Virus record (IMG/VR): IMGVR_UViG_3300050034_000403
Span: 25,229-89,228 of that record
DNA length: 64,000 nt
Strand: one strand, 5' to 3'
Source of the DNA: a virus
The notes beneath the pieces are model-generated. The model saw only the letters and a list, made by a program, of their open reading frames with translations, made no database searches and was not told the origin of the DNA. Each line of letters begins with the position of its first letter. Position 1 is the stretch's first letter. The translations under genes and the position numbers were made by a program. This document shows positions 1 to 30,514 of the stretch, piece after piece.

Positions 1-903
1 CCTGGCAGCGGCCAGCGTTCCGCTTGTAATGTTGCTGGCATTCGTCGTATCCGTCGTTGCCGAGGTTGCAAGCCCAGTTACCTGCGAGGCTGTGATAGTC
101 CCCGTGAAAATCCCAGAAAAGATAGAGCTGGAAGTTGCTGCAATGAGGTTTCCGTCGCTATCCCAGGCTACAACGACATTTGTGCCCACCGTTCCTGACA
201 CGGTGGCCAATTCGGCAGTTGAGCCAGAATAGCTGAACGGAAAATCGGACGTGGTAAGACGGCGGAAAGTAGGAATCCCTGACGTCCCGTCTGGAGAGGC
301 AAACACAAGGTTTTCTGATTCACTCGCTAATGTGACCGCGAACGTGCCCGCCGTTGTGATTGGCGAACCGGAAACAGAGAAAATGCTCGGCATCGTCAAG
401 CCAACAAAGGTCACACCGCCGCTTCCGCTTCCCGTTCCGCAAGGTGACCCGGTCGACGTGAAGTTCCCATCCACGTCGGTTCCAACGCACTCGTTGGCGA
501 CAGCGCCGGGAAAAGTAGTGGCTATGCCAGCAGAACTCGGATAAGTGCTGAGCAGCGTCACAGGAGACGGATAGGTGTTTGGAGAAACGCCTCCGCTTAA
601 CACAATATCGTATGCTTGGGAGGACAAAGCATAGAGCAACCAGGACGCATCTTCATTTGCCGTAAACGGGTTTGTGAGTGGCGTACTGGAAGAATCCGAG
701 TAAATTGTCGCCAGCGTGGTCGTCCCGGTAAGGTACACCGTTACCGTGCAGTAAGGAATCAGACCTTGCTGATAGTTTGAAGAAAGCAAACCCGACACTG
801 TAGCTTGAGACGCGCCAAGGTCGCAATATCCCGAGATGGGATCAACAGCACCCATTGCGACAGCCGGCGAGATCAATAACAATGCAAGGATAAACTTCTT
901 CAC
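1..903 (-). CDS. Secreted or virion fibre-like protein, 3-prime end outside window
   Basis: Open frame on the minus strand starting at a GTG (901-903) preceded by AGGAGAG, and running off the left edge, so about 301 codons are visible. It opens with MKKFILALLLLISPAVA, a clear signal-peptide-like hydrophobic segment, followed by a segment (GYCDLGA, then CTVTVY) shared with the gene just upstream at 915-2372. The rest is Ser/Thr/Gly-rich low-complexity beta-type sequence typical of phage fibre and adhesin proteins. It starts 11 nt after the upstream stop and looks like a tandem duplicate. A function in host attachment is inference from position after the head genes and from composition. Confidence 0.6.
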   Translation of the reverse strand, partial: MKKFILALLLISPAVAMGAVDPISGYCDLGASQATVSGLLSSNYQQGLIPYCTVTVYLTGTTTLATIYSDSSSTPLTNPFTANEDASWLLYALSSQAYDIVLSGGVSPNTYPSPVTLLSTYPSSAGIATTFPGAVANECVGTDVDGNFTSTGSPCGTGSGSGGVTFVGLTMPSIFSVSGSPITTAGTFAVTLASESENLVFASPDGTSGIPTFRRLTTSDFPFSYSGSTAELATVSGTVGTNVVVAWDSDGNLIAATSSSIFSGIFTGTITASQVTGLATSATTDTTNASNITSGTLAAAR

Positions 904-914
904 GTTCTGCTCTC

Positions 915-2372
915 CTAGTTATGATGAAGATGGCACCACACGGTAGGCGTCACTGTTGCCGATGTTGCATTGTATCGGTCTACATTTTCAGCGTAGTCAA
1001 AGCCTGTTGTCCTCACTGTGTTGACGCCTGTTGAACTTCCCCAGCCTTCGGTCGTGTAGGTCGTGCACCCAATGTAGTAATCTGTGTCAGCCTGTGTAGC
1101 AACAACCGGTGAAACCCCACTGAATAGTTGCGTTCCTTGGCAATCAACGCTATTTCCCCCCACGGTCAAGGTGCATCCAGTGAAGCTGAAGTAGTAGTCG
1201 GTTCCCCCCGGGTTTACGCACCCAGAATTAGTAACGGTGCCGGCTGTCGTTGTGCAAAGAGGGTTGGTAGAAGGACCGATAGCCGACAAAATCAACGTGC
1301 CAGACAGCGTAGTCGCACCGCTAACCGCCAAGCTGGTCAGAGTGCCTAAACTGGTCAACGAAGAATTCACCACGGAGGAATTTAGCGTCGTGCCGCTCAA
1401 TGTGCCTGCCGGCGCAATCACTGCATCGGTGCTTATCGCAGTAATCAGTCCTTTGCCATTCACGGTAATCGATGGAATTGCAGTCGAGGAACCAAAGGTA
1501 CCAACGTCTGTGTTTACCGTCGCCAAAGTCAACACCAAGCTACCTGCGGAATTGGTTACATCGCCCGTATGCGCAGGTTCTGCGGCAGCGGGTAATATCG
1601 AGGACAAACTCAAAACCCCATCCGTGTCATAAAGAAAACCGGTTACGGCAGTCAAGGTAGGCAAGGTAATGTTTTCCAGCGCAACAACTGTGGTTGCGCT
1701 TTGGGTCCCGATCACATCTCCGCTTAATACTCCAGAAAATCCTGGGCCTGCCAAATACACATCCGTAATTGTTACCGGCGAAGGATAGACATAAGGCAAG
1801 ATTCCGCCGCTCATGGAAATGTCATATCCCATATTGTCCGCAGCATAAAACAGCCAAGAAGCATCGGTATTGGCCGTAAATGGGTTGGACAATACAGTAT
1901 CGCTGGAATCCGCATAGAGCGTTGCCAACGCCGGTGTCATCGTCGCGGAAACCGATGCTGTCCCCGAGCAAGTCGCTGTCCCGCTAGAAAGCGTTGCAGT
2001 TGTCGGCGCCGTGGAATAGTCGCCACCTGAAGAAATGGTGATCGCCGCCCCGCTTCCAATCGTGTTTGTGCCCGTCAGCGTAACCGTACCGACAGCGTCT
2101 GTCGTGCCCGTCAAGAATGTAACCGTGCAAGTTTGCCCTGTGGTTCCAGTTGCTGTGCCGCCGCTTGTGTAGGAAGAGTTTTTGACGGAGTAGACGGAAT
2201 CGATATACACAGTCACCGTGCAGCTCGGCACCAGGCCTTGGAAACTATTGGAAGAATTCAAGCCAGAAGTCAGCGCCTTGGTTGCGCCAAGGTCACAGTA
2301 GCCGTTCAGCGCTGTTGTCTGCGCGAATAGCGAAGTCGTGAAAAGAAAAATCGCGAATATTGTCTTTTTCAT
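915..2372 (-). CDS. Secreted or virion fibre-like protein, paralogue of the next gene
   Basis: 485 residues, beginning MKKTIFAIFLFTTSLFAQ, which resembles a signal peptide with a cleavage-like site after FAQ. The following GYCDLGATKALTSGL, CTVTVY and NPFTANTDASWL segments recur in the gene at 1-903, so the two are tandem paralogues. The body is Gly/Ser/Thr-rich with repeated TLSGT-type strands, as in trimeric fibre or adhesin proteins. It ends HLHHN, as some fibre tips do. A signal peptide is unusual for a virion fibre, so an exported phage lipoprotein or adhesin is the alternative. Last long gene of the minus-strand structural run. Confidence 0.6.
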   Translation of the reverse strand: MKKTIFAIFLFTTSLFAQTTALNGYCDLGATKALTSGLNSSNSFQGLVPSCTVTVYIDSVYSVKNSSYTSGGTATGTTGQTCTVTFLTGTTDAVGTVTLTGTNTIGSGAAITISSGGDYSTAPTTATLSSGTATCSGTASVSATMTPALATLYADSSDTVLSNPFTANTDASWLFYAADNMGYDISMSGGILPYVYPSPVTITDVYLAGPGFSGVLSGDVIGTQSATTVVALENITLPTLTAVTGFLYDTDGVLSLSSILPAAAEPAHTGDVTNSAGSLVLTLATVNTDVGTFGSSTAIPSITVNGKGLITAISTDAVIAPAGTLSGTTLNSSVVNSSLTSLGTLTSLAVSGATTLSGTLILSAIGPSTNPLCTTTAGTVTNSGCVNPGGTDYYFSFTGCTLTVGGNSVDCQGTQLFSGVSPVVATQADTDYYIGCTTYTTEGWGSSTGVNTVRTTGFDYAENVDRYNATSATVTPTVWCHLHHN

Positions 2373-5259: not shown

Positions 5260-6267
5260 TTAAAACTGTCCGACAAATGCGCTGAGTTGGACTGCTTCTC
5301 CGGATAAATTCTGGCCAGATACAACCTCTGTTCCAACTGAAGATGCTGCGCTAACAGTCACAGCGGTAGCTCCCGCAATGGCGACTGCGCCTGTCGTGAC
5401 AAGTGCTCTGCCATTGAGTGTGCCGCCACCAAGAGTAATTCCGCTTACTGCCAGAATGTTTCCGTTCACCGTCGAAGTCGCTACCGAAGTAAAAGCGCTT
5501 CCAGCCACAAAAACCACATTCGCGGCCTGTGCACCATTGACCAATGCAATTGTCTGTCCACTGGCAAGATTGATCGTCGATCCTGCCACAAAAACAAACA
5601 CAGCACTGGAGTTATTCTGCGCATCCAGAATGATGCCTGTAGGCATCGTCAAGCTGGTCGACCCAAAATAGTTGCCTGCCGTGTACGTCGCTGCCGTCGA
5701 ACCATTGCCACCCGTGCTTAGGTTGGTAAGTCCGGACAGGGTCGGCGTCAATCCCTGGTAGTAGATGATTGCCGCTGTCAATGCAGTCTGGGCGGCAGAC
5801 GCAGCAGCATTGTCAATCACTGCGGGAGAGGTCAGAGTGCCTGGAGGGAAACCACTAATACTCGTGGTCGGATAGCTTCCAATGTTTCCACCCGTAATGA
5901 CTGAACTTCCCACATTCGTGATGCCGGAATATGCCAGCAATGCATAGTTAGCGGCAGTGCCAAGACGTGTCGTGACAACAGAACCACCGGCGCTGGTGCT
6001 TGCAGCAAACCACCGCAAATACCATTGCTGACGGGCGCCAGTTCCCGTGGGGTCAGCATAAACCACGTAATTTTTGCTTAAACTTATTACGCCACCGATA
6101 AGCACATCGATGTAGTAGTTCGTCAGGGCCAGTGTCACCAGATCTCCCGTGCCGGCAACGTAGGACACGGGACCAGTGCCACTTCCAACAAAGAGTCCCC
6201 GCCGTCCAGCAAAGTCTGGATAGAGTGGACCGGCACCGGTACCTTTTCCAATTGCTGTGAGAATCAC
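5260..6267 (-). CDS. Decoration-type virion protein with inserted DUF3494 (ice-binding-like) domain
   Basis: 335 residues, GTG start at 6267 after AAGGAG. Residues 1-95 and 310-335 match the 119-residue product of the neighbouring gene (6289-6648): both have GPLYPDF, VGSGTGP, GARQQWYLRWF and a C-terminal NLSGE.VQL.AFVGQF. Between them lies a roughly 215-residue insertion (about 96-310). It has the hallmarks of DUF3494, the beta-solenoid domain of bacterial and fungal ice-binding proteins: LGTAANYALLAYSGITN, GSYPTTSISGFPPGT, LDAQNNSSAVFVFVAGSTI, NGAQAANVVFVAGS and NGRALVTTGAVAI. The insertion sits in a surface-loop-like position. The carrier is probably a capsid decoration or small virion protein (inferred from place beside the capsid gene). 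The domain may bind glycans or surfaces rather than ice. Confidence 0.8.
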   Translation of the reverse strand: MILTAIGKGTGAGPLYPDFAGRRGLFVGSGTGPVSYVAGTGDLVTLALTNYYIDVLIGGVISLSKNYVVYADPTGTGARQQWYLRWFAASTSAGGSVVTTRLGTAANYALLAYSGITNVGSSVITGGNIGSYPTTSISGFPPGTLTSPAVIDNAAASAAQTALTAAIIYYQGLTPTLSGLTNLSTGGNGSTAATYTAGNYFGSTSLTMPTGIILDAQNNSSAVFVFVAGSTINLASGQTIALVNGAQAANVVFVAGSAFTSVATSTVNGNILAVSGITLGGGTLNGRALVTTGAVAIAGATAVTVSAASSVGTEVVSGQNLSGEAVQLSAFVGQF

Positions 6268-6288
6268 GATGACTCCTTGCTTCGGTTA

Positions 6289-6648
6289 TTAAAACTGGCC
6301 GACGAATGCACCAAGCTGAACCGACTCGCCCGAAAGATTCGTTGTGCTTGTCACTTCAGCCCCAACTGTGCCAGCAGTGGCCAAAGCGACAAACCAGCGG
6401 AGATACCACTGCTGTCGCGCACCAGTTCCTGCGGGATTCGGGTAAACCACATACTTACCGCTCACGCTTGTCACGCCACCGAGAAGAGCATCGATGTAGT
6501 AGTTCGGCAGGTTCAGCGTCACCAGATCCCCTGTGCCAAGGACATAGGACGCGGGGCCAGTACCACTCCCGACAAAGGTCGCGCGTCGACCGATAAAGTC
6601 TGGATAAAGTGGACCGCCGCCGCCTTTTGTGATCGCTGTAAGAACCAT
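6289..6648 (-). CDS. Small virion or decoration-type protein, paralogue lacking the DUF3494 insert
   Basis: 119 residues from ATG 6648, chosen because AAGGAG lies 6 nt upstream. Aligns end to end with the two terminal segments of the 335-residue neighbour at 5260-6267. It contains the shared GPLYPDFIGRR, VGSGTGPASYV, GARQQWYLRWF and LSGESVQLGAFVGQF segments. Together they show a tandem duplication in which one copy received a large domain. Location directly after the capsid and 280-residue gene suggests a capsid or neck surface protein. Confidence 0.65.
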   Translation of the reverse strand: MVLTAITKGGGGPLYPDFIGRRATFVGSGTGPASYVLGTGDLVTLNLPNYYIDALLGGVTSVSGKYVVYPNPAGTGARQQWYLRWFVALATAGTVGAEVTSTTNLSGESVQLGAFVGQF

Positions 6649-6719
6649 GATTGCTCCTTGCTGCAATGACTCGATGACAATGTGCAGGGACGAGCATTGC
6701 TGCCCGTCCCCAACCGTAA

Positions 6720-7571: not shown

Positions 7572-8804
7572 CTATGCCGTAAATCCAAACGCGTAATTGG
7601 AATGACGCGGCTGCACGTTGTACAGATTGATACCCAACCGCATGAACAAAGCGTCGATGCTGACGTTGTTCGGCATCGGGGCGCGACGAAGGCCAAAGTT
7701 CCAGCCCTTTTTGTTGGTCGGCCGAATCTTGAAGCTTTCCGGCTCCAAGAAGTACAAAACTTCCGAAGGCTGAATCGTGGTGAGCGAAGGCAGGCCGGAA
7801 CCAGTCGGCGAGACAGTGACGGCCGCACCGTTCTTGGTGAACTGCGGAGTTGTGAACGCCACGGTCGTGGTGCTCGATCCAACGCCATCTGCCAAGTTCG
7901 TGTTGCCAGCCGCACCGTTTGCCGGAGCCAGCTCAATGAAGTTCTGAGCCTGCGCCGAAGGAGCCAGCGGGTCAGCGTAAATATCCACGCCGTTGAAGTT
8001 CAAACCATCCCACTTGATGTCGTGGCGAGTGTTCGAAATATCGCGGCGCTGCGCATCGAGCGCAACGGCAATGGCCTTGAATCCGAAAACGTTGGTGATA
8101 CCCAGCGTCGGATTGCCGCCCGTCACCTTGCACTGCGACCACAACTGCATCAAGGCAGCAAAATCAATCTGCCCCGTGCCACCTGTCGAGGTGCCCAGGT
8201 AAAGCGGCGTCGAGTTCAGCGCGGTTCCGATGTTTCCGTTGCGCGCCTGGCCACCGTAGTTCGCGTAGATGTTGCCATACACGGACGGATCGATGCCGTT
8301 ATTCAGAGCTTCATCCAGACCATTGATGGTCTTGATGCGATTGTCCTGAATCGTCGCGGCAGAGGCTTGGCCGTGGCGGAACGAATCCATCTCCTGCATG
8401 GTGTTCATGGTCATCACCATGGCTTCCATGTAGAGCTGGTACTCGTCGACAATCTTCGACGGACCGGAGTTAATCACACCACCGGTGCCGGAACCGTCAT
8501 CCATCTCCCAGTCGTCCAGCGGATACCAAGTGGCATACGCCTTCGGCAGGAATTTGATGCCGGTGTTGATCTGCTGGCGAGTCACGGTAACAGTCTGGCC
8601 GGGATTCACCGCAGCGCCCTGAGTGCGCCCGTAGAGAATGCCTTCCATCATGCCCGCGCCGCCCAGGAATTCATCCCACACACCGGCTCGGCGGAGCTTC
8701 GCCTGGAAAGGAGTGTCCACGAACAAGTTGTTGAATACTACATTCTTGCGGACACTTTCCAAGTTAGATGCGTCAATTTCGTTATACAATGGGTCCGTAG
8801 GCAT
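7572..8804 (-). CDS. Major capsid protein
   Basis: 410 residues. Position directly downstream of the scaffold gene and in a portal-scaffold-capsid order is characteristic. Sequence features fit an HK97-fold coat protein: an N-terminal helical segment (ESVRKNVVFNNLFVDTPF), a central GITNVFGFKAIAVALDAQRR region, and a C-terminal EVLYFLEPESFKIRP plus MPNNVSIDALFMRLGINLY. It contains NTMQEMDSFRHGQASAATIQ, which resembles the spine helix. Preceded by a 163-nt leader carrying conserved RNA element copy 1. Identification is by synteny and fold-like pattern rather than by a diagnostic motif. Confidence 0.75.
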   Translation of the reverse strand: MPTDPLYNEIDASNLESVRKNVVFNNLFVDTPFQAKLRRAGVWDEFLGGAGMMEGILYGRTQGAAVNPGQTVTVTRQQINTGIKFLPKAYATWYPLDDWEMDDGSGTGGVINSGPSKIVDEYQLYMEAMVMTMNTMQEMDSFRHGQASAATIQDNRIKTINGLDEALNNGIDPSVYGNIYANYGGQARNGNIGTALNSTPLYLGTSTGGTGQIDFAALMQLWSQCKVTGGNPTLGITNVFGFKAIAVALDAQRRDISNTRHDIKWDGLNFNGVDIYADPLAPSAQAQNFIELAPANGAAGNTNLADGVGSSTTTVAFTTPQFTKNGAAVTVSPTGSGLPSLTTIQPSEVLYFLEPESFKIRPTNKKGWNFGLRRAPMPNNVSIDALFMRLGINLYNVQPRHSNYAFGFTA

Positions 8805-8870
8805 ATCTGGTTTCCTTTCAGCGACTTACGCTGCATTCTCCGTTTCGAGAACTTTCGATTGCTCAAACAA

Positions 8871-8936
8871 AAATGGCCCAAGCCATTTCTGGGCTTGAGC
8901 CATTGCTGATTCCCTCGAAAGGGGGGCATGCGTCTC
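8871..8936 (-). ncRNA. Structured leader RNA element, copy 1 (upstream of major capsid gene)
   Basis: One of three related sequences (with 10531-10596 and 16379-16447) in minus-strand 5-prime leaders. Read on the minus strand: GCATGCCCC, a short CCCT-TTCG-AGGG hairpin, then AGCAATGGCTCAAG, a 10-12-nt loop beginning with CCAGAAATGG, and CTTGGGCCATT. The two outer segments pair as an 11-bp stem. The inner AAATGGC/GCCATTT pair forms a competing hairpin. Located 66 nt upstream of the capsid start. Confidence 0.65.
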
Positions 8937-8967
8937 GACTGATCTTCACGTCTTCAAACTGCAAAAA

Positions 8968-9993
8968 TTACGCTGCGGTAGACTCAGAAACTTCCTGCCG
9001 AATCGCCTGCGATGTTGCCTGCCGGCGCTGCGATTCATTCAAGTTCAACGGATCAGGACGCTCGTTGGCCTTCACAGCACGTGCCACATCAGCAAAGCGA
9101 GAAGGCTGCGCAATCCGCACATCCGGATTCGATCCAATCTTTTCGGCCCACTTGCGATCTGTTTCTTCAATCGCCTTCTGCCGCGCTTCTTCCGCTTCCT
9201 TCAGCTTTGCTTCAAAAGGTGCCGAAGCTTCCAGCCGAACCTTTGCGTCGTGCTCTTCCTGCGACTTGCGCTGAATCTCAGCCTGCTTGCCGGCAAAGTC
9301 GTACTTCCGTGCCACGTAATCGCGGAACGGCAACCGGGAGTTGCTGGCTTCTTCTGAGAGTTTGTCGAAGGAATCGGGAAGGAACTGTCCACCGCTCAAT
9401 CGCTGGTATTCCTGCATGGCCCAGCCGACATTGCTAATTCCGGCACCCAGGCGCTGATCGATGGCTTCCATCGTGAACGTTGGGCTACCAGGCGTTCCAC
9501 CCTGCGCACCGGCCACATAGCGGCCTTGTGCATCGCGCTGCTGGTTTGCTGCCTGTGCTTCCTGCGGCTTGTAATTCGGCGCTTCTGTCGGAACAAATCC
9601 GGCGGAGCGTGCGGCTTCATTCTGCGCACGATAGAAAGCGGCTTGCGCTTCCAAATTCGCCTTTTCGGTTCCCCAATTGTTCAATGCCGGCGCAATCTCT
9701 TTGTCGTAAAATTCTGCGTTGGAACGCTGAGCAACTTCGGCCGCTTCTTTTGCTTCTGCCGCAGCCTTTCGTTCCTGTTCAGCTTTTTCGATAGCCTGCT
9801 GTGCTGCCTGGCGCTCTTGCTCTGCCTTTGCGGCAGATTCTTGGGCCTTGGTGGCAGATTCCTGAGCAGTCTTCCGTTCCTGTTCCGCAGTAGTCAGGAC
9901 TCCGGTGAATGCAGTAATCGCCTTTGCATCGAGTGCAGCGATCTGCTCGTCGTTCAATCCGGATTGCTTCAAAATTTCGTTTACTGTCGGCAT
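8968..9993 (-). CDS. Scaffold protein for head assembly
   Basis: 341 residues, predominantly charged alpha-helix with a long coiled coil (residues about 35-100, with repeats such as AQESAAKAEQERQAAQQAIE) and a Glu/Lys/Arg-rich C-terminal half. Low hydrophobicity, high Ala/Gln/Glu content and position between portal and major capsid genes are typical of phage scaffolds, which shape the procapsid and leave before DNA packaging. No protease motif is seen. Confidence 0.75.
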   Translation of the reverse strand: MPTVNEILKQSGLNDEQIAALDAKAITAFTGVLTTAEQERKTAQESATKAQESAAKAEQERQAAQQAIEKAEQERKAAAEAKEAAEVAQRSNAEFYDKEIAPALNNWGTEKANLEAQAAFYRAQNEAARSAGFVPTEAPNYKPQEAQAANQQRDAQGRYVAGAQGGTPGSPTFTMEAIDQRLGAGISNVGWAMQEYQRLSGGQFLPDSFDKLSEEASNSRLPFRDYVARKYDFAGKQAEIQRKSQEEHDAKVRLEASAPFEAKLKEAEEARQKAIEETDRKWAEKIGSNPDVRIAQPSRFADVARAVKANERPDPLNLNESQRRQATSQAIRQEVSESTAA

Positions 9994-10014
9994 GTCACTT
10001 GTTCTCCCGAAGCG

Positions 10015-10332
10015 TTAGTATTGCGGTTGCTGACCCATCGGTGTTGGCTGTGGCGGACTTACCAAAGCCGTTTGCATCTCTTGAATTCCCTGCGATACCT
10101 TTTCCGCACCAGAGGCAAGACGCGGATCGGAGGCAGCCATTTGCTTGGCTGTCTGATACCAACGTGCGAGCAACATCTGCATTGGATTGGCAGGAGCTTG
10201 CGAAGGAGCACCTTGCTGCGGGGCATTTTGGTCAGGTGCGCCTTGCGGCTGAGCGCCAGCTCCTTGATCGGGAGGCGGTGTACCTGCACCTTGTCCTTGG
10301 TCCTGCGGCATTGGTTGTGCACTTGTAGCCAT
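10015..10332 (-). CDS. Pro/Gln-rich small protein between portal and scaffold
   Basis: 105 residues. The N-terminal half is low-complexity Pro/Gln/Gly/Ala (QGQGAGTPPPDQGAGAQPQG). The C-terminal half is a single amphipathic helix region (PMQMLLARWYQTAKQMAASD). Preceded by a good ribosome binding site (AAGGAGATTCCAGTA). Phages often carry such a disordered-helix protein just before the scaffold; an assembly helper is likely. No family recognised. Confidence 0.55.
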   Translation of the reverse strand: MATSAQPMPQDQGQGAGTPPPDQGAGAQPQGAPDQNAPQQGAPSQAPANPMQMLLARWYQTAKQMAASDPRLASGAEKVSQGIQEMQTALVSPPQPTPMGQQPQY

Positions 10333-10395
10333 TACTGGAATCTCCTTGAGCGAGATTCCCCAACGGCAGCATAGCTACCGTTGGGGAAAAGGTAA

Positions 10396-10503
10396 CTACG
10401 CCTTGATGGCGCTGCGCTTGCCGCGGCCCTTGCGACCACGACTCTTGCGGCCCTTCTTCAGATGGCTTGCCTTCATTGCACTAGCCTTGCGACGTTTTGC
10501 CAT
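10396..10503 (-). CDS. 35-residue protamine-like basic protein
   Basis: Begins MAKRRKASAMKASHLKKG and ends RGKRSAIKA; about half the residues are Lys or Arg, with no acidic residues. Start chosen at 10503 because AAGGAGG lies 9 nt upstream. It has its own promoter (10615-10643) and the conserved leader element copy 2, so a 35-codon gene has about 110 nt of dedicated 5-prime control. Likely binds DNA or RNA, perhaps packaged or condensing; inference. Confidence 0.7.
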   Translation of the reverse strand: MAKRRKASAMKASHLKKGRKSRGRKGRGKRSAIKA

Positions 10504-10530
10504 GATGTTTTCCTCCTTGGTGTGAAATAG

Positions 10531-10596
10531 AAATGGCCCAAGGCCATTTCTGGTCTTGAGCCATTGCTGATTCCCCAAGGAGGGGGGGCATGCCGC
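10531..10596 (-). ncRNA. Structured leader RNA element, copy 2
   Basis: Minus-strand leader of the 35-residue basic gene. It has GCATGCC, a CCCC-TCCTT-GGGG hairpin, then AATGGCTCAAG, a 12-nt loop and CTTGGGCCATT forming an 11-bp stem with one G-U pair. The internal AAATGGCC-TTG-GGCCATTT hairpin is mutually exclusive with that stem. Lies 27 nt before the start codon. Confidence 0.7.
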
Positions 10597-10614
10597 TCAA
10601 AAGATTCTGTTAGA

Positions 10615-10643
10615 GCTATAAGCCGAATTCTTTTTCGCGTCAA
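10615..10643 (-). promoter_or_regulatory. Sigma70-type promoter for the 35-residue basic gene
   Basis: Minus strand TTGACG, 17 nt, TATAGC. It lies immediately upstream of leader element copy 2. The region (TTGACGCGA, AATTCGG) is similar to that upstream of copy 3 at 16461-16489. Confidence 0.6.
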
Positions 10644-10652
10644 GTGTTATTT

Positions 10653-10892
10653 TTACAAAATCGTTTCGTCTACATCCAGAATCTTACGAATCTCTTCCGC
10701 TTGTGCATCAGAAATCTTAGTGCGCTGTTCGAGATTTACTCCCTGCACAGAACCCTGGTTATACTGAACAACCATCTTTCCGGTTGTTCTTGTAGCTTGG
10801 AGTAACTCGTCGGTCTGCTGAATATCGGCAGGTAATTCGACGCTTACTTCGGTCAAATAGTAGTCTTTTTGAACCTTGATTTGGACTGCCAT
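10653..10892 (-). CDS. Hypothetical protein
   Basis: 79 residues (MAVQIKVQKDYYLTEVSVEL to LDVDETIL). Mixed beta then helix; no motif recognised. Follows the portal stop by 9 nt and has AAGGAG before its ATG. It is likely cotranscribed with portal and ends near the promoter of the small basic gene. A virion accessory role is possible from context. Confidence 0.55.
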   Translation of the reverse strand: MAVQIKVQKDYYLTEVSVELPADIQQTDELLQATRTTGKMVVQYNQGSVQGVNLEQRTKISDAQAEEIRKILDVDETIL

Positions 10893-10901
10893 GTCTTCTC
10901 C

Positions 10902-12977
10902 TTAGCTTTCGCTTACTACCGTGCGCGGTTCTCCACCTTGCGCGCCTTTTTGCTTGATCTTGGGCGGCTTTCCTCCGCTCGATGGCCGACCGCCACCAGC
11001 GCCCTTGCCACCGCCGCCGCCCTTACCACCGCCCTTACCACCGCCACCTTCTTCTGGTGGCTGAATTCCGAGCTGCTTCATAAACTGCTGTGCCGCAGCA
11101 GCCGCAAGAATCTTCAGCTTTTGCGATTCCAGCTCTTCGTTGAACCATTTTTCATGTTCGGTATTTCCCTGCACCTCGCCATAGTTGGGGATATCGAGGT
11201 TCTTCATCACCGTCGACCAAGAAATCGGCGCACCACCACGCTTCAGTTGCAGCATCATCAATTGACGTTGCATCTGCGTCACCTTCAACAGCGTGCTCGG
11301 CACCGATACCAACCGAATCTGCTTGGCAAACCAACGCGCACGCGTCAGCTGGTTGTAATGCGATGGATCTTCGGGAAAATTACCGCTGATCATCTCGTCG
11401 GGCATGTGGCTCGGAACCAGATCGTCTGGATTAAAGTCAAAAACCTCTCGTGCAATGCTGTCTGGTCCCACATACTCCATGATTCGTCCGACGTTGAACC
11501 ATTGCAGGATCAGGAATTTCATGCGGTAACCAACCGCCTTATTGCCTTTTTCAATGCGTGCGGCAATGCCCTTTGCAATTGGGCCAATGGACTCCAGCAT
11601 CTTGTCGGCCGTGTCATTGGCAATGTTCATCTTCATGTTCTGAAGATTGCCAAGATCCGTCAGGCCCAACTGCGACTGCTTGCACTCCTTCAAATACTTC
11701 AAAAACGTGAAATGCTCCGAGCTAACACGAACTTCTTCAGGAAGAATCGACTGAAGGATGTCTCTCGGCTTGCCGTCTACGCCGTAGCGCACGTCTTGCT
11801 CAAAGATGTCAAAATGCTCAATCTTTGCGCCGCCTGTGGCGGTGTGGTCATAACCGATCGGCGGATTCAACGTAATCGTGATTACGTCGTCTATCTTGCG
11901 CTCGATCTTGCGCGTCGTTGTTTCAATCGATGCCACATCACCTACTAAAGAACGTCCCAGAGGCTCCCAAGCCCAATCATCCACGGTGTACTGAATCACT
12001 GGAATCTTTCCATCCCAGTCAAAGCTTGGTCCGTCGTACATGGGCCGATCGAGTCCAGTGGAAGTAATGATGAGTCGCAGGTTCGGATACACGCGGCAAT
12101 CTTCTACCGTCGCCGGTCGCATGTACGCCAAGCCGTTGCGCATGCCGCCAAAAATCATTTGGCCAACATAGGGAACTTTGTAGAACCAACTGGTGCCAAC
12201 ATCTCCCATTGGCAATTCATAACCGGTATTGTTGATTCGGAGGTCGCGAATAAACGTGTAGCGAATTTCGCAATAAAGATTGCCAAAACTCCGGTTTGGG
12301 CCACCATAGCGGAAGCGCTCGGCGTAATCCATCCGTCGCGCTTGAACCTGCGTTTTGTAACTACGCGGTCCAACTGTCTGCAATTGTCCCTGGAAAAGCG
12401 GGAAACGACCGTGAGCTTCTGCGATCGGCATGTAGTCGTAGACCGTGACGGCGTAAGCATCCTGCACGTCGTTGCTTCGAGGAATCTGAACAGGAACTAC
12501 ATCCAGCAGGCCCAACGCATCGAACACCATCTTGCGTTCGCCATAGCCATATTCGTCCGCGCGCACCTTTGGCCACAGATAACCGATACCGGTAACGCTG
12601 GCATACTGCAAAACTTTCAAAATCTGGAAAGGAAAATCGGATTCCAGGTAGACGCACTTTGATACCTTGGTCAGCATCTCTGCCATTTGCTTATATGCAG
12701 GGATATCCGACCCATATCCGGCAATTTCGCGCACTTCGGAAAGAGTTTCGCAGAACTTGCGGATGTCGTATTTCAGTTCATTGGTGACAAGAATTGACCG
12801 CGACTTATCTCTGAAGATGGCATCGAAAATGCGCATATTCGTGCCCAGGTTCTTGTAGCATGTCTGCCCTTCAAGAAACCCTTCACCTTCTTCGATTTGT
12901 TCCTCGACCCATCCAGCACGCGAACTCGGCGAGGATTCAAACTTTGGGCATTGCCAGCAGGTAGTTTCTAGCTCCAT
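10902..12977 (-). CDS. Portal protein
   Basis: 691 residues from ATG 12977 (MELETTCWQCPKF), preferred over an in-frame TTG 9 nt upstream because of GAGGG spacing. Length and position between terminase and scaffold fit the large portals of P22-like or podo-like phages. Supporting segments: KVRADEYGYGERKMVFDALG, IPVIQYTVDDWAWEPLGRSL (typical portal wing or stem region), and VASIETTTRKIERKID. The C-terminus has Gly/Lys-rich repeats (GGGGKGGGKGGGGGKGAGGG), an unusually long flexible tail. Forms the dodecameric ring through which DNA enters the head. Confidence 0.82.
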   Translation of the reverse strand: MELETTCWQCPKFESSPSSRAGWVEEQIEEGEGFLEGQTCYKNLGTNMRIFDAIFRDKSRSILVTNELKYDIRKFCETLSEVREIAGYGSDIPAYKQMAEMLTKVSKCVYLESDFPFQILKVLQYASVTGIGYLWPKVRADEYGYGERKMVFDALGLLDVVPVQIPRSNDVQDAYAVTVYDYMPIAEAHGRFPLFQGQLQTVGPRSYKTQVQARRMDYAERFRYGGPNRSFGNLYCEIRYTFIRDLRINNTGYELPMGDVGTSWFYKVPYVGQMIFGGMRNGLAYMRPATVEDCRVYPNLRLIITSTGLDRPMYDGPSFDWDGKIPVIQYTVDDWAWEPLGRSLVGDVASIETTTRKIERKIDDVITITLNPPIGYDHTATGGAKIEHFDIFEQDVRYGVDGKPRDILQSILPEEVRVSSEHFTFLKYLKECKQSQLGLTDLGNLQNMKMNIANDTADKMLESIGPIAKGIAARIEKGNKAVGYRMKFLILQWFNVGRIMEYVGPDSIAREVFDFNPDDLVPSHMPDEMISGNFPEDPSHYNQLTRARWFAKQIRLVSVPSTLLKVTQMQRQLMMLQLKRGGAPISWSTVMKNLDIPNYGEVQGNTEHEKWFNEELESQKLKILAAAAAQQFMKQLGIQPPEEGGGGKGGGKGGGGGKGAGGGRPSSGGKPPKIKQKGAQGGEPRTVVSES

Positions 12978-12982
12978 TGCGG

Positions 12983-13555
12983 TCAACCCTCGATTTCATT
13001 CAGTACGGCAAAATTTCCAAACAATTTCACCGCTGCCAGGTTGTACAACACAGCAGCTTCCTCGGGACTGCTACAGATTCCGAGATGATTGTTCTTCCCG
13101 TTGTGCTCAATCTGTGCTGCGAATTTCTTTCCTTTTTTTACTACGCCCCTATATCCCGTACTGCTTTTGTACTTGCGATTAGCTGCGTTTTGACTTGACG
13201 TTGCTACGCGCATTTCGGAACAGCGACAATCCAGTCCGTTCCCGTGGATGTGATCAACCTGAACGCCTTTGCTGACCCCCATAATTACGCGGTGCAACGA
13301 AACGTGTTTTCCATACTCCTCGCGCAATTCTTCCGTCGAAAGTGCTTCTGCATAAAACTTTTTCTTGCTTGGATGTAAATGCCAAAGAAATTGTGCCGCC
13401 AATTCCTTTTTGTCTGCATCGATAAGCGCTTCATGCCCATCGCCAAAAGGAATATGAACGACACCGTCGTCGTCAGTTATCCATGTCGCAGCAAACTCGG
13501 CCCGCTTTTTGCGGAAGTATTCTTTGCGTCCGCGAATTGTTTCCGGTTGAATCAA
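12983..13555 (-). CDS. HNH-AP2 homing endonuclease
   Basis: 190 residues. HNH core: VSLHRVIMGVSKGVQVDHIH, then GNGLDCRCSEMRVATSSQNA and ANRKYKSS. A C-terminal AP2 domain follows: GYRGVVKKGKKFAAQIEHNG, then SSPEEAAVLYNLAAVKLFG. Inserted between the portal and the small gene upstream of it, in the same orientation. Homing endonucleases cleave an intron-less or gene-less allele and spread by repair. Same architecture as 4641-5192, so this phage carries at least two members. Confidence 0.88.
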   Translation of the reverse strand: MIQPETIRGRKEYFRKKRAEFAATWITDDDGVVHIPFGDGHEALIDADKKELAAQFLWHLHPSKKKFYAEALSTEELREEYGKHVSLHRVIMGVSKGVQVDHIHGNGLDCRCSEMRVATSSQNAANRKYKSSTGYRGVVKKGKKFAAQIEHNGKNNHLGICSSPEEAAVLYNLAAVKLFGNFAVLNEIEG

Positions 13556-13574
13556 GCCTTCACCTGATAACTTC

Positions 13575-13599
13575 TATTGCGCATAGTAGGCAAAATTTG
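13575..13599. terminator. Palindrome between HNH gene and terminase-proximal gene
   Basis: The intergenic 13556-13644 contains the near-perfect palindrome TAGGCAAAATTTGCCTA. It could end the upstream minus-strand transcript or bind a protein. No T-run follows, so termination is uncertain. Confidence 0.35.
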
Positions 13600-13644
13600 C
13601 CTACACGTCTACGCTAATTTCACATAGCGTAAGTTATGCGTAAC

Positions 13645-14034
13645 CTATCGTCCTTTCTCATACGCTTCTGCATGCAGATAGCTTTCGCGCCGCATTTTTG
13701 TCTTGTCCGGTCGATTGCCATACGATTCCAAATGTTGGCGCAAGAAGTCACGGTTCAGGTTATTCCGTGCGTTTGCCATCTGGTGGCGCATGTAGCTGCG
13801 CAAGTTGGCGCGGATGGGTCCTTCAATCATTTCTCGCTGCTCGTCTTCCATCTGGTACTTGTAGGCTTCCCACTTACGCATCCGTTCCGACCACACTTCG
13901 GCTTCATGCATGGTGTTGCAGACAATCTTTTCGAAACCCGCTGGTGCCGGGAACTGTTCAGGAAGGCCCATACGGATTTCGCCGCGAGTTCCATCGTGCC
14001 AAAACACGATTTTGGTTGCTAACTGTGCGTTCAA
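13645..14034 (-). CDS. Small protein coupled to terminase
   Basis: 129 residues from a TTG at 14034. That start overlaps the terminase stop as TTGA and has GGGAGG 6 nt upstream, better than an ATG at 14070. Sequence LNAQLATKIVFWHDGTRGEI, then LPEQFPAPAGFEKIVCNT and a charged helical C-terminus (MEDEQREMIEGPIRANLRSY). Phages of this type often have such a conserved protein between terminase and portal. Function unknown. Confidence 0.6.
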   Translation of the reverse strand: MNAQLATKIVFWHDGTRGEIRMGLPEQFPAPAGFEKIVCNTMHEAEVWSERMRKWEAYKYQMEDEQREMIEGPIRANLRSYMRHQMANARNNLNRDFLRQHLESYGNRPDKTKMRRESYLHAEAYEKGR

Positions 14035-16181
14035 TCGAGACCTCCCACAGAAACCATGTTCGAAGAACATACGGCTTTGCTCAACGGAGGTGCTTTCTCC
14101 GTTGGCAATGCATAGCGCTTTTGCGATCTATCCGCAAGAATGTCGAAATCGTGCGCAGTAAAGAAAGATTGCGCCGCAGCACGCACGCGATCATCATGCT
14201 GACCGCTGCGATGCTCCAACTTGGAAACTCTGCCAGCCGCTGCATGCCGCTCCAGCGTTTTCAACTCTTCAATTAACCATCTGGATGTCGGGCGATACCA
14301 GCCACCATTCACAGCTTCCGTAAAGCGCGTCATCAGGATTGGCACACTCCATACGTTGGAATACCAGCCCTGTTTTTTGCCAGAATCATCCTTGATCTTT
14401 TTGCTGTCGTAGCGACGTGGAACGTGATGCCAATGGAAGCCCATCAGCTTCAACTGGTGCTGGCATGTATCACCTGGTCTTCCGATCTGCTCCACGCAAA
14501 ACTTCACGCCACGTGGATCTTTTGCATTTTCGCCATACCAGGCGGCAATGCAAGCTGCAAATCCGACAACTTGTGCAGAGTTGATGCGGTTCGATACCAG
14601 CTCAGCCACCTGATAGTCATATTCATCGCCAAAACGGTTGCGCGTTACCGATACGCAGGTTCTGTCTTCATCCTCTTTGCCAAGACCATCTGCCGTGTCG
14701 ATGCCGCAACTGTAGGTGTATCCAGGGTTGGGCTCTTCATATACCAGCAGCTTGTCAAAGGTTTCCAGCTCCACATCTTCGTCAATCGGAAGGAGAGGAA
14801 CCAAAACCCAGTCATAGCGTTGTCCGCGATCCGATTTCCATGTCACGCGGATATGCGCTTTGTCGTAATCAATCAATGGCTCTGGTGGCTCAAAACCATC
14901 GTCGATGGAATCACCAGTAATGGCGTAGGCTTGCACCTGCTTCTTTCTTTCCTTGGTGTCGCCTTGCACTTCATAAATGTTGTCTTCGATCTCCTGAATC
15001 GTTTCCACATCGAACACGCTGTCATGCACACCTGTCAGCGCTTCATAGTCGTCAGCCGGCATCTGCGCAAGCCAAATCTTCTGACTGTGATTTTTGCAAG
15101 ATTTGGCGTAATTGAATTCCCAAAACCACTGCTGCTCCAGCGGCATCCGCCAATCTTTTCCAACAATCCGTGACAAAAACGGCGTATTGCGAATGTAGGA
15201 CTCGGCACGGATCACATGCTTGCGCGTTGCTTCCATGCGCTTCTTGTAAAAGTCTTCTGGAACCGGGAACTGACGAATCCATGCCTTTTCAGGGTAAAGA
15301 TCCGTCGCCATTGCCCAAGGAATAAATACAGGGCAAAGATCATGCAATCCTTTGGGGAAGTCTTCTTTCGCAGCGCGCCACGTCTCGGCCAACCAGCCGG
15401 TGTTTCCACCACCTGTGCCTTCAAACACCATGAAGAGGTTGGGAGTGGCGTGCGTGGCGCGCAACAGGCCTTCTTCAATCACCTTCTTAGGCTTGGGGAT
15501 ATCCGCCAACTCCGAAACGTGAATTAATGTGGGAGTCCAACCTTGCGCGATACCCGTTGCCTGCATACCAGATTGAATGGACAACACAGATCCGTTATCG
15601 AATGAGCCTTTGGGTCCACGGCGCGGCACCAGCCACCAGGGGCATTGGTTGTAGGCAATATCCAGGATGCGACCGATCAGCTCGGACTTATCCGACTGCA
15701 CCGAGGCCATCACAGCCTGAGTGTGCGGAATGAACAACATCCTTTGAAGAAACTTCAGAGCGGTTTTTGTGGTGATGCCCACCTGCCGCGCTTTCAAAAT
15801 CAAAAGGCGAATAGCAACTTGCTTTTCGTCGAAATCGGCGATTACGGAATCGAAAACTTCTTGCGATTTCCGGTTTTTGAATTTGAAAATCTCGCCGCCT
15901 TCGTTGCAGACGTAGGCGTAGCAATCGTCAAAGTAGTTGCTATCGAGGGCACACATCACCTGCTCGTTCTCTACCCACCGCCAAATTTCCTTTTGGCGCT
16001 TTTGCGTGATGGGACGCACAAGGGAGATATACGAGGACTTCGAGTTTGATTCGATTTTTACGATGGAATCGATGTAGTGCTTGAATTCTTCCACCTGGGC
16101 AAACGTATGAGGGGTAGGCATCCACCCCTCACGCGCGGCGAACTTGTCCAGGTTCTGTACGATAATCTTTTCGGAATACAT
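14031..16181 (-). CDS. terL: Terminase large subunit
   Basis: 716 residues. ATPase part: LLILKARQVGITTKTALKF (about 126-144) is the Walker-A-like segment, and LIHVSELADIP is Walker-B-like. FEGTGGGNTGW is a coupling-type segment. Nuclease part: YSCGIDTADGLGKEDEDRT supplies the first metal-binding Asp, FCVEQIGRPGD the middle acidic site, and RSGQHDDRVRAAA the C-terminal Asp pair. The protein packages DNA through the portal and cuts it. Starts 14 nt upstream of the 36-residue basic gene's stop side and overlaps the next gene by TTGA. Length is at the long end of the family. Confidence 0.92.
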   Translation of the reverse strand: MYSEKIIVQNLDKFAAREGWMPTPHTFAQVEEFKHYIDSIVKIESNSKSSYISLVRPITQKRQKEIWRWVENEQVMCALDSNYFDDCYAYVCNEGGEIFKFKNRKSQEVFDSVIADFDEKQVAIRLLILKARQVGITTKTALKFLQRMLFIPHTQAVMASVQSDKSELIGRILDIAYNQCPWWLVPRRGPKGSFDNGSVLSIQSGMQATGIAQGWTPTLIHVSELADIPKPKKVIEEGLLRATHATPNLFMVFEGTGGGNTGWLAETWRAAKEDFPKGLHDLCPVFIPWAMATDLYPEKAWIRQFPVPEDFYKKRMEATRKHVIRAESYIRNTPFLSRIVGKDWRMPLEQQWFWEFNYAKSCKNHSQKIWLAQMPADDYEALTGVHDSVFDVETIQEIEDNIYEVQGDTKERKKQVQAYAITGDSIDDGFEPPEPLIDYDKAHIRVTWKSDRGQRYDWVLVPLLPIDEDVELETFDKLLVYEEPNPGYTYSCGIDTADGLGKEDEDRTCVSVTRNRFGDEYDYQVAELVSNRINSAQVVGFAACIAAWYGENAKDPRGVKFCVEQIGRPGDTCQHQLKLMGFHWHHVPRRYDSKKIKDDSGKKQGWYSNVWSVPILMTRFTEAVNGGWYRPTSRWLIEELKTLERHAAAGRVSKLEHRSGQHDDRVRAAAQSFFTAHDFDILADRSQKRYALPTEKAPPLSKAVCSSNMVSVGGLD

Positions 16182-16194
16182 CAGCCCTCATGAG

Positions 16195-16305
16195 CTAGCC
16201 CTTGACGGCGATCGTCTTGCTGGCTCTCTTACCGAGCTTCTTGACACGCGGCGTCATTTTCTTCGTTTCGCACAGCTTGCTTGAAACGCGCTTTGTTTTT
16301 GCCAT
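16195..16305 (-). CDS. 36-residue basic protein
   Basis: MAKTKRVSSKLCETKKMTPR, ending RASKTIAVKG. Strong ribosome binding site (CAAGGAGGAACGTC) before the ATG. Like the 35-residue gene at 10396-10503, it is Lys/Arg-rich, begins MAK, and has its own promoter plus the conserved leader element. The two may be functional twins. Too short for most gene finders; the start site and leader make it convincing. Probably binds nucleic acid. Confidence 0.65.
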   Translation of the reverse strand: MAKTKRVSSKLCETKKMTPRVKKLGKRASKTIAVKG

Positions 16306-16378
16306 GACGTTCCTCCTTGGAACTTACGATCCCGCCAACTTGGTTGTTGCGGGAGGGTTGCAATAGGCCGGAAAACAG

Positions 16379-16447
16379 AAATGGCCCAAGGCCATCTCTG
16401 GTCCTGAGCCATTGCTTGTTCCCGCTTGAGCGAGGGGCATGTGTCTC
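16379..16447 (-). ncRNA. Structured leader RNA element, copy 3
   Basis: Minus strand: CATGCCCCTCGCTCAAGCGG forms the first hairpin. AATGGCTCAGG pairs with CTTGGGCCATT as the long stem, where the change to GG is tolerated as G-U. The internal hairpin is weakened by one change (GAGATGGCC). Lies 73 nt upstream of the 36-residue basic gene, and a further GC-rich inverted repeat (CCCGCAACAACCAAGTTGGCGGG) sits between. Confidence 0.65.
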
Positions 16448-16460: not shown

Positions 16461-16489
16461 CATTTATACCGAATTACATCTTGCGTCAA
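16461..16489 (-). promoter_or_regulatory. Promoter upstream of leader element copy 3
   Basis: Minus strand TTGACG followed by TATAAA at 15 nt or TAAATG at 17 nt. Similar in sequence (TTGACGC.A, AATTCGG) to the promoter at 10615-10643. Confidence 0.5.
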
Positions 16490-20409: not shown

Positions 20410-21028
20410 GTTGCGTCTATTCGGCGCACTGTAGAAGCTGTTTGATTGTTGCGCTTATCCAGCGCACTATGACTATCTTGCAACCTTTTTATAGCCAAAA
20501 AGCCGTGATGATTCTCGTGTTGCATCTACTCGATGCACTGAAACTGCCTTGTGACTTTGTGCTATTCCTTGACGCGTTGCGCTTTCTCGGCGCACTCATA
20601 CGTCTATAAATATCCCTTGTGTATTATTGCGCTTATTCAGTGTATTGTTGCGCTTATCCAGCGCACTCCTACTTTGTCGCACATGTTGCATCTCTCCGAT
20701 GCACTTTGACTGTACACCCCTACCTATCCATGTTGCATCTGCTCGATGCACTCATACTGTGCTCCTCAACCTATCCATGTTGCGCCTATGCGGTGCACTG
20801 AAACCGCATTACTGCGAAATCCAAGGCTCACGTACGTTGCATCTTCTCGATGCACTTCAACCAGTCTGCTATACAGCAGACAAAAACGAATGCCAATGGA
20901 GGTTGCATCTGTTCGATGCACTCATACGGATTTGGTACGGGATGCTGTTGTTGCGCTTATCCAGCGCACTAGAACATCTTGTCAGCTCATTCTTCAGGTT
21001 GCGCCTGCTCGACGCACTCATATGACAC
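20410..21028. CRISPR. Array 1: degenerate CRISPR-like hairpin array
   Basis: At least 12 units at 20410, 20448, 20519, 20576, 20626, 20647, 20685, 20732, 20779, 20836, 20902, 20950 and 20998. Each keeps the 5-prime core (GTTGC, stem, 5-nt loop, stem, ACT) but most have lost the 3-prime tail. Start-to-start spacing is irregular (21-71 nt). Stems vary with compensation: TGCATC/GATGCA, TGCGCT/AGCGCA, TGCGCT/GGCGCA, TGCGCC/GGTGCA, TGCGCT/AGTGTA. Only 20448 and 20519 keep a full 37-nt unit. Open frames through it are artefacts. Reads as a decayed version of arrays 2-4. Confidence 0.75.
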
Positions 21029-28519: not shown

Positions 28520-28541
28520 CGCTTATGATAGCGGTCACTTT

Positions 28542-28550
28542 TTTGATAGG
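28542..28550 (+). promoter_or_regulatory. TTTGATAGG motif, copy 1
   Basis: Followed by a T-rich stretch (CCCAAACTTTTC) and a GCGGC-GGCACA-GCCGC type hairpin before the start at 28606. Same arrangement as the other copies. Confidence 0.5.
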
Positions 28551-28605
28551 TGCCCAAACTTTTCACCTTTAGCGGCGGCACAGCCGCAAGAATGGAGCTT
28601 TCACC

Positions 28606-28917
28606 ATGGCACAGGAACCGAAACAGATTATCGCAATTCCGGAGTTGGACAGCGCGGCAGGCGCGGCACAGATGGAAATCAGCACCGAAAAGTATGACGA
28701 CGGCCGCCTTGTTTCCGCCGCTCACCTGCATTTTGTGAAAGATGGCTCACTCACGTTTAGAGTGTACGGCGATTTTCGTAAGGTCCTTTTGCGCACCGTT
28801 GCCCGCGCAACGCAGAAGAATCTGAACACGCAACACGCCAGCGTGTTCACGCCTGCAGCCATCGACGCATTGAAAGCGGAAGCGCTCGCCTTCTACGCCG
28901 AAAAGAGGAAAAAGTGA
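28606..28917 (+). CDS. Hypothetical protein
   Basis: 103 residues MAQEPKQIIAIPELDSAAGA, then SAAHLHFVKDGSLTFRVYGD. Ends KAEALAFYAEKRKK. Ribosome binding site GGAG lies inside the leader ATGGAG. Overlaps the next microprotein start as GTGA. No family recognised. Confidence 0.55.
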   Translation: MAQEPKQIIAIPELDSAAGAAQMEISTEKYDDGRLVSAAHLHFVKDGSLTFRVYGDFRKVLLRTVARATQKNLNTQHASVFTPAAIDALKAEALAFYAEKRKK

Positions 28918-29006
28918 AAATTCAAGCTTTGCGCTTTGGCTTGCCTCTTTCCATTGCGCTGTACGCGCTAGGCTATGTCCTAGTCCGGCATTTTCTCCAG
29001 CACTAG
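28914..29006 (+). CDS. 30-residue single-span membrane microprotein
   Basis: GTG start overlapping the previous TGA. VKIQALRFGLPLSIALYALG then YVLVRHFLQH. One hydrophobic helix (FGLPLSIALYALGYVLV), positive N-terminus. AAGAGGAAAAA upstream. Small phage membrane peptides often inhibit host proteins or act in lysis timing; here function unknown. Confidence 0.45.
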   Translation: MKIQALRFGLPLSIALYALGYVLVRHFLQH

Positions 29007-29012
29007 CACCCT

Positions 29013-29038
29013 GCCCGCCCGTGGGCAGATACGCGGGC
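29013..29038 (+). promoter_or_regulatory. Leader hairpin of class B, copy 3
   Basis: GCCCGCCCGTGGGC, 4 nt, TACGCGGGC, ending 11 nt before the next ATG. Confidence 0.55.
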
Positions 29039-29049
29039 ATAGAGGGAGC

Positions 29050-29319
29050 ATGAAAGCTCATTTTAACTACCCTGTGGAATTCCAGACACACCCCGATTAC
29101 AGGGCACATTCCGGACAAGTCGTGGAAATTGTGCGTGCACTAAGCAGATTAGAAGCAGACTTTCATGACGACCCGCAACTTGAACGCATGTTCAAAATTC
29201 GCGCGGCCGATGGATGGCAGGGCGATGCTTTTGAAAGCGAACTTTCGCGCCCGAAGAATATCACGGTGAAAGAGTTTGCAAAATTCTGCGATGGCCTTGT
29301 CAGAGACGCAGCGAAGTAA
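29050..29319 (+). CDS. Hypothetical protein
   Basis: 89 residues MKAHFNYPVEFQTHPDYRAH, then VVEIVRALSRLEADFHDDPQ. Start 11 nt after class B hairpin copy 3 with AGGGAG. Helical. No family recognised. Confidence 0.55.
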   Translation: MKAHFNYPVEFQTHPDYRAHSGQVVEIVRALSRLEADFHDDPQLERMFKIRAADGWQGDAFESELSRPKNITVKEFAKFCDGLVRDAAK

Positions 29320-29326
29320 CAGCTCC

Positions 29327-29348
29327 GCCCGTGGGCTAGTACGCGGGC
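29327..29348 (+). promoter_or_regulatory. Leader hairpin of class B, copy 4
   Basis: GCCCGTGGGCTAGTACGCGGGC shortened form: GCCCG and CGGGC pair, the upstream GCCC is replaced by CTCC. Ends 11 nt before the next ATG. Confidence 0.5.
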
Positions 29349-29359
29349 AAGGAACGGCG

Positions 29360-29509
29360 ATGTATAACGACACGGTTTTACTCCTTGCTCTAGGCGTTGT
29401 GGGTTTTTGGTGCTGGCGACTGGACGAGCATCTGCACACGACAAAAGAAAGCATTCTCGAACGCTTGGACGAGCTGGAAAAGCAACTCAAGGAAAGCCGG
29501 AAAGCGTAA
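29360..29509 (+). CDS. 49-residue membrane-anchored coiled-coil protein
   Basis: MYNDTVLLLALGVVGFWCWR (one transmembrane helix), then a coiled coil ESILERLDELEKQLKESRKA. Similar in architecture to small Rz-like or holin-accessory proteins, but there is no lysis gene nearby. Start 11 nt after class B hairpin copy 4. Confidence 0.55.
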   Translation: MYNDTVLLLALGVVGFWCWRLDEHLHTTKESILERLDELEKQLKESRKA

Positions 29510-29517
29510 TCTAACAG

Positions 29518-29534
29518 AGTCCAGATTCCAGACT
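29518..29534 (+). repeat. Gene-end palindrome, copy 2
   Basis: AGTCCAGATTCCAGACT, 9 nt after the stop at 29509, directly followed by TTTGATAGG copy 2. The stem has two mismatches relative to the ideal form. Confidence 0.45.
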
Positions 29535-29542
29535 TTGATAGG
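29534..29542 (+). promoter_or_regulatory. TTTGATAGG motif, copy 2
   Basis: Followed by CAACAGATTTTTAAC and then the hairpin GCGGC-ACA-GCCGC, AAGGAG and the ATG at 29586. Confidence 0.5.
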
Positions 29543-29585
29543 CAACAGATTTTTAACGGCGGCACAGCCGCAAGGAGAAAAGAGT

Positions 29586-30038: not shown

Positions 30039-30043
30039 GCATA

Positions 30044-30057: not shown

Positions 30058-30106
30058 AATTCACGCGTAACAGTCGGGTTTTTCCCCGGCAGAATCGAGG
30101 AGCACC

Positions 30107-30505: not shown

Positions 30506-30514
30506 ACTTGCCCT

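Follow-up and report, generated by a model that had tools for sequence, protein, structure and literature searches.

In riboswitches and other leader attenuators with two folds, an irregular 5′ domain shares a strand with a hairpin that resembles a terminator or masks the ribosome-binding site (RBS). To our knowledge, RNA switches in phages have been described mostly for single genes. The genes e, soc, 49 and I-TevI of phage T4 have leaders that sequester the RBS, and their late transcripts begin inside the 5′ arm and so escape masking (PMC3014915, PMC2988022). In the com/mom system of phage Mu a small phage protein opens a hairpin beside a masked start site (PMC6483171), and the type I toxin mRNAs aapA3 and hok contain metastable hairpins (PMC6733600).

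The leader RNA element analysed here, about 75 nt in length, is present as three full copies, all on the minus strand, in the window, a 64,000-nt stretch (positions 25,229–89,228) of an 89,228-base IMG/VR virus record. The whole record contains six full copies, including those three, and one reduced copy outside the window that lacks helices P2 and P3.

As in the T4 leaders, a long RNA helix would mask the Shine-Dalgarno (SD) sequence and start codon of late phage genes; such pairing was predicted in the leader (0.80 in class A), not for the SD of window copies B and C, and no late promoter was found inside the 5′ arm. Unlike in T4, the basic-gene copies have their promoter upstream of the whole element, so that the escape must differ; most other copies have no promoter, helices compete with one another, and copies are numerous within a genome. 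The masked start site adjoining a hairpin recalls Mu com/mom, but several genes share the element, unlike in that single-gene system, and no binding protein is known. The likeness to riboswitches lies in an irregular 5′ domain and a hairpin, terminator-like or masking the RBS, that have one strand in common: the conserved domain P4-P1 uses segment 1, as does P2. However, no ligand is known, no known RNA family was found in Rfam 15 (gathering threshold and, for the element, E up to 1), and the genes are phage virion genes and not the metabolic genes of riboswitches. As in aapA3 and hok, transient local hairpins would give way to a long-range closed fold over the SD; unlike in those mRNAs, no antisense RNA partner was found, and phage late genes are concerned instead of toxins.

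Results and Discussion

Position and Sequence of the Leader Element

The first-pass annotation had placed three copies of one element of about 65 nt at 8871, 10531 and 16379. The three copies were confirmed by a 26-base core with three exact matches in the window (0 of 100 shuffles); the length had been underestimated by about 10 nt, and the three positions given are those of the long stem's 3′ arm. The assignment to the leaders of the capsid gene (PHROG major head) and of two tiny basic protein genes (35 and 36 aa) was borne out. That annotation had missed the 5′ third, made up of helix P4 and hairpin P1, as well as four further copies in this virus and the complementarity between the 5′ part and the RBS; helices P1 and P4, the copy-specific RBS pairing and the terminator-like tail are additions of the present analysis. 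From 5′ to 3′ the element consists of GAGnnRCAUGCC, a variable C-rich/G-rich P1, GAAYMA, segment 1 (GCAAUGGCUCAAG), segment 2 (AGAAAUGG), segment 3 (CUUGGGCCAUUUCU) and a U-rich tail.

Copy A (10524–10598, minus strand, 98 bits) lies 20 nt before the gene for the 35-aa basic protein (10396–10503, minus strand). The 5′ strand of its P4, GAGCGGCATGC (10588–10598), has GCAATGGCTC (10567–10558) as open-fold partner. The 5′ arm and loop of the P1 hairpin CCCC-TCCTT-GGGG (10573–10585) double as an anti-Shine-Dalgarno sequence, the anti-RBS stretch CCTCCTTGG (10575–10583) being complementary to 10520–10512. The P2 hairpin (10532–10565), with an 11-bp outer stem (AATGGCTCAAG/CTTGGGCCATT) followed by the U-rich tail, and the P3 hairpin AGAAATGGCC-TTG-GGCCATTTCT (10529–10551) exclude each other. 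The SD sequence CCAAGGAGG is located at 10512–10520, and a promoter-like TTGACG-17-TATAGC at 10615–10643, conserved in relatives, was not flagged by the scan tool; all these features are on the minus strand.

Copy B (8864–8936, minus strand) precedes the major capsid protein gene (7572–8804, minus strand; PHROG major head protein) by 59 nt, with an SD that follows the element after about 45 nt; its P2 hairpin (8872–8904, minus strand) is terminator-like, with the tail TTTGTTTG. Copy C (16372–16447, minus strand; P2 hairpin at 16380–16413) is found 66 nt before the gene for the 36-aa basic protein (16195–16305), upstream of the terminase large subunit gene (14031–16181), with a promoter-like TTGACG-17-TAAATG at 16461–16489, all on the minus strand. 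The similar promoters (CTTGACGC) previously ascribed to two copies were found at nearly equal distance from the element, and the capsid copy has none.

Distribution and Putative Host

Pattern and capsid searches of IMG/VR yielded 68 distinct close copies, and a covariance model was scanned against the whole record of the window's virus and against those of 21 relatives, 22 records in all. Matches were obtained in all but one of these (21 of 22). The original proposal would have been refuted by relatives that lack the element or in which both stems are broken; none occurred among the relatives examined. Five candidates (L056, L057, L059, L061 and L072) gave no scan match, yet a diverged copy was recognisable by eye at the same place, and they were rejected as element-free relatives. 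The records being fragments, and reduced copies being counted, about three to eight sense-strand copies per record were found in close relatives and one or two in distant ones.

What remains constant across capsid identities of 65–100% is the site in the leader of a basic gene of 33–40 aa, about 1.6 kb upstream of the capsid gene; this tiny gene was preceded by the element in every relative checked. Other sites are the leaders of the capsid gene, the second basic gene before terminase, a gene whose product starts with MSFWSSLFGG, an 85-aa gene and an HNH endonuclease gene. As judged from the sequences, the element seems to have multiplied within the window's clade, because these other sites are mostly found there.

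In L090, an HNH endonuclease gene with its own leader copy was observed in the same virus (703–1452, minus strand). Extra ORFs are inserted after the capsid leader, ahead of the capsid gene, in L030 (6513–6995) and L016 (6112–6730), and at the same site in L029, L043, L080 and L002; the ORF inserted in L016 had a weak LAGLIDADG-like match.

The only cultured relatives found were the Tunturiibacter phages Tunturi_1/2 (PMC11924767), with a capsid 27% identical, which suggests Acidobacteria (Acidobacteriota) as the host of these soil viruses. The element was looked for in Tunturi_1 and no copy was found. Among the bacterial genomes of GTDB, a related capsid was detected in one single-cell contig, where the element match was only weak (E 0.034).

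Other Features of the Window

Four plus-strand arrays (20410–21020, 36664–37970, 41253–42015 and 63393–63990) contain 51 repeats of about 37 nt (GTTGCATCTGTTCGATGCAC...), mostly spaced by about 71 nt. With 38 distinct spacers of 29–37 nt they are CRISPR-like, within a virus record. The repeats diverge by paired changes in their hairpin, and three spacers recur only in what seems to be the same array of the close relative L018. At 28524–34107 (plus strand), TTTGATAGGGGACACTTTTT occurs six times and TTTAGCGGCGGCACAGCCGCAAGAATGGA four times, possibly as a second repeated leader/terminator set, for plus-strand genes. Since tyrosine integrase and RecT family genes are present (57315–58703 and 60456–61601, minus strand), the virus is probably temperate. 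Two direct repeats of 233 nt (6006–6622, minus strand; 76% identical, 384 nt apart; ORFs 5260–6267 and 6289–6666) are probably a tandem gene duplication.

Covariation of the Helices and the Two Folds

The 11-bp stem with paired substitutions (P2) and the competing internal hairpin (P3) reported for the three window copies were both present across the 68 distinct copies, with paired changes in each. In this alignment P1, P2 and P3 each had 93.7–95.3% standard pairs with two-sided changes, and their covariation score was reached by none of 500 shuffles. Segment 3 is common to P2 and P3, and segment 1 is contested by P4 and P2. By mutual information, leaving out two mostly gapped columns, the 5′ half of segment 3 covaries best with segment 1 (P2) and the 3′ half with segment 2 (P3). 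This supports the idea that the two hairpins exclude each other and serve as a switch or protein-binding site, since both are conserved and compete for one strand; a bound protein or ligand is inferred. A pseudoknot of P3 with the upper half of P2 was not excluded, but its connecting loop would be 0–3 nt.

Outside one clade, P3 was rebuilt from different sequence in each of the 18 copies tested: the loop side of P2 was still complementary to its 3′ arm (p ≤ 0.05 each, loop shuffles). It was lost in the clade L049/L052/L055. P4 pairs GAGnnRCAUGC with GCAAUGGCUC, with one bulged A, and is nearly invariant in close copies; distant copies alter both strands together, from GAG:CUC to UAG:CUA and from CAUGC:GCaAUG to CGCGC:GCaGCG, CAGAC:GUCaUG, CGUGC:GUgACG, CUUGC:GUAgAG and CGCGG:CUgGCG. 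When P4 strands were swapped among copies, pairing as good as that of the own strands was reached in only 6 of 5000 permutations.

Models of the closed fold (R1; P1 and P2), the open fold (R2; P4, P1 and P3) and sequence only (R3) were trained on close copies only. Both R1 and R2 outscored R3 on most held-out distant copies, with R1/R2/R3 scores of 43.0/54.1/33.5 bits for L050, 43.8/46.7/24.4 for L064, 53.1/49.7/35.9 for L067 and 34.2/30.0/16.0 for L062; L075 gave 30.0 and 41.4 bits with R1 and R2, and no match with R3. Little or nothing was gained with R2 in copies without P3, as in L055 (42.4/20.8/23.1). Within a comparative analysis, these scores on distant copies are the strongest evidence that both folds are selected.

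Pairing of the 5′ Part with the Ribosome-Binding Site

The 5′ part of the element (CAUG and the 5′ arm of P1) is complementary to the downstream SD and start codon. Thus CCUCCUUGG matches the SD CCAAGGAGG in window copy A, and the diverged copies of L049 (ACAGACUCC:GGAGUCUGU), L075 (CCUUUGGG:CCCAAAGG), L013 (UCCUUGGAG:CUCCAAGGA) and L086 (CGACAUGCCC:GGGCAUGUCG) keep the match with other letters. Because a C-rich sequence pairs with any SD, RBS regions were swapped among the copies of the same genome. The mean energy of the 5′ part with its own RBS was −18.4 kcal/mol versus −16.6 (sd 0.33) for the within-genome swaps (0 of 5000; 10 of 5000 without class A), and in the reversed-RBS control the effect was gone and not significant. 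As C-rich 5′ parts pair somewhat with any SD, the swaps show only excess pairing.

In full folds, the mean probability of the SD being paired with the 5′ part was 0.80 for class A (basic gene), 0.66 for capsid copies, 0.42 for class C and 0.56 for the others, higher in own than in swapped leaders (p 0.0004). Clear SD masking within the window was predicted only for copy A (10524–10598); in copies B and C the SD is 45–50 nt away, and the fold leaves it unpaired with the 5′ part (P 0.04 and 0.01). As the ribosome site of the capsid copy is distant, P2 must act there. Blocking segment 1 alone in silico had only a small effect and did not free the RBS. From the end of the element to the start codon there are mostly 11–25 nt in the commonest classes. 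Two reduced copies without P2 and P3 keep P4, P1 and the anti-RBS, which suggests that the alternative between P4-P1 and RBS pairing is the core.

Terminator-Like Tail and Promoters

In computation only, a GC-rich hairpin followed by a U-tract, the mark of an attenuator, was found in the leader; termination itself is inferred. The d score of P2 with the U-rich tail (d'Aubenton-Carafa scale) was above zero in 103 of 113 copies and 18.1, 40.5 and 19.4 for window copies A, B and C; a general scan flagged copy B only. Since the tail persists in distant lineages, including the clade without P3, P3 alone cannot explain it. Of the 46 copies in classes A and C, 42 have the motif TTGAC 38–50 nt ahead of the element, versus 1 of the 13 capsid copies.

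The tail kept in distant lineages even without P3, the positive terminator scores with 40.5 for the capsid copy, and the promoter directly upstream in those 42 of 46 basic-gene copies could all be accommodated by attenuation or antitermination only, with P2 a terminator unless P4-P1 and P3 form and the anti-Shine-Dalgarno likeness secondary. A terminator, however, does not need the spacing to the start codon, mostly 11–25 nt in the commonest classes; the 5′ part fits its own RBS beyond within-genome swaps; two reduced copies retain P4, P1 and the anti-RBS in the absence of P2 and P3, and an unrelieved terminator before the promoterless capsid gene would starve capsid synthesis. Attenuation as the sole function is unlikely, although it cannot be set aside.

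Energetics and Further Explanations

For the element alone, the energies of the open and closed folds were nearly equal in copy A (−28.5/−29.6) and copy C (−28.4/−28.5) and less equal in copy B (−21.7/−27.7). With the RBS included the closed fold led by 12–16 kcal/mol on average, so that the open state depends on timing during transcription or on a bound factor. Since the folds are near-equal for the element alone in copies A and C and P4-P1 is transcribed first, it is plausible, on these modelled energies, that the decision is taken while the leader is transcribed.

The lead of the full-length closed fold and the completion of P4-P1 before segment 3 is made are also what would be expected of a kinetic timer without any factor, in which nascent P4-P1 and P3 allow a short burst of translation followed by irreversible closure, and metastable hairpins in mRNA leaders provide a precedent (PMC6733600), such folds being described for other phage mRNAs as well as toxin mRNAs. 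Capsid production, however, requires sustained synthesis, and the unpaired loop sequence of P4-P1 is conserved beyond a timer's need; we regard such a timer as rather improbable. A role in stabilising or processing the mRNA, as a 5′ hairpin or an RNase III site that boosts late genes without switching, would suit leader hairpins before abundant virion genes and the mid-operon copy before capsid, but it leaves unexplained the competing helices covarying on shared strands and the copy-specific RBS pairing, and hardly merits retention.

A leader peptide (MAQDQxW) of a ribosome-mediated attenuator was rejected, its frame not being conserved (AUGGCUC frames relative to the gene 25/35/29; loop lengths in all three classes modulo 3). 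Pairing of the U-rich tail with the GAAYMA linker was weak and not significant, and was discarded. A trans-encoded complement of segment 1 was searched for in the window, where only the elements themselves and chance-like matches were obtained.

Proposed Mechanism

The element is best read, with reasonable though not strong confidence, as an RNA switch with two states that acts in cis on virion genes and other late genes, in whose 5′ leaders it lies. Competing conserved helices, dual-use strands, a terminator-like hairpin and copy-specific RBS masking fit an expression switch. Comparison supports P1, P2, P3 and P4, their exclusivity, the copy-specific RBS pairing and the terminator-like score; all of the evidence is comparative and computational, without experiment or transcript data.

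In the proposed open fold, GAGnnRCAUGC would pair with GCAAUGGCUC to form P4 (bulged A), closing P1, and segments 2 and 3 would form P3. P3 would occupy part of the U-rich tail, the anti-Shine-Dalgarno sequence of P1 would be kept off the ribosome site, and the gene would be expressed. In the closed fold, GCAAUGGCUC would quit P4 and pair with segment 3 as P2, a hairpin with a U-tract resembling an intrinsic terminator; on read-through, the freed 5′ strand (CAUG and the P1 5′ arm) could pair with the gene's own SD and start codon. The closed state would block the gene by termination, masking or both, neither of which is more than inferred in cells, as is the direction of the switch.

P4-P1 is made first and probably forms first. 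A factor, itself inferred like any trigger, may bind the conserved asymmetric loops (GAAYMA opposite CC; nnR opposite G), hold P4-P1 open and coordinate the genes, a coordination which is likewise inferred. These loops, conserved while the helices vary, are the likeliest inferred site for a trans-acting factor; whether opening or closing results from binding is also a matter of inference. Only tentatively can it be proposed that P4-P1 might sense one specific protein or small molecule, made by the phage or by the host, the copies forming an RNA-wired regulon in which a single signal would open the capsid, packaging and structural genes at once, through antitermination combined with unmasking of the RBS.

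Experimental Section

The d'Aubenton-Carafa score was calculated by our own implementation of the published formula. Folding energies ignore tertiary contacts, magnesium and protein. Some delimitations (P3 retention test, P4 strand test) rest on manual work or a simple search. Because many of the copies are related, counts of cells are not independent events.

Conclusions

A single structured RNA seems to have multiplied from one location until genomes carry it at as many as eight, every copy adapting its 5′ strand to the ribosome site of its own gene with both competing folds kept. The element offers a testable route to the timing of virion production in uncultivated soil phages and a new RNA family for annotation.
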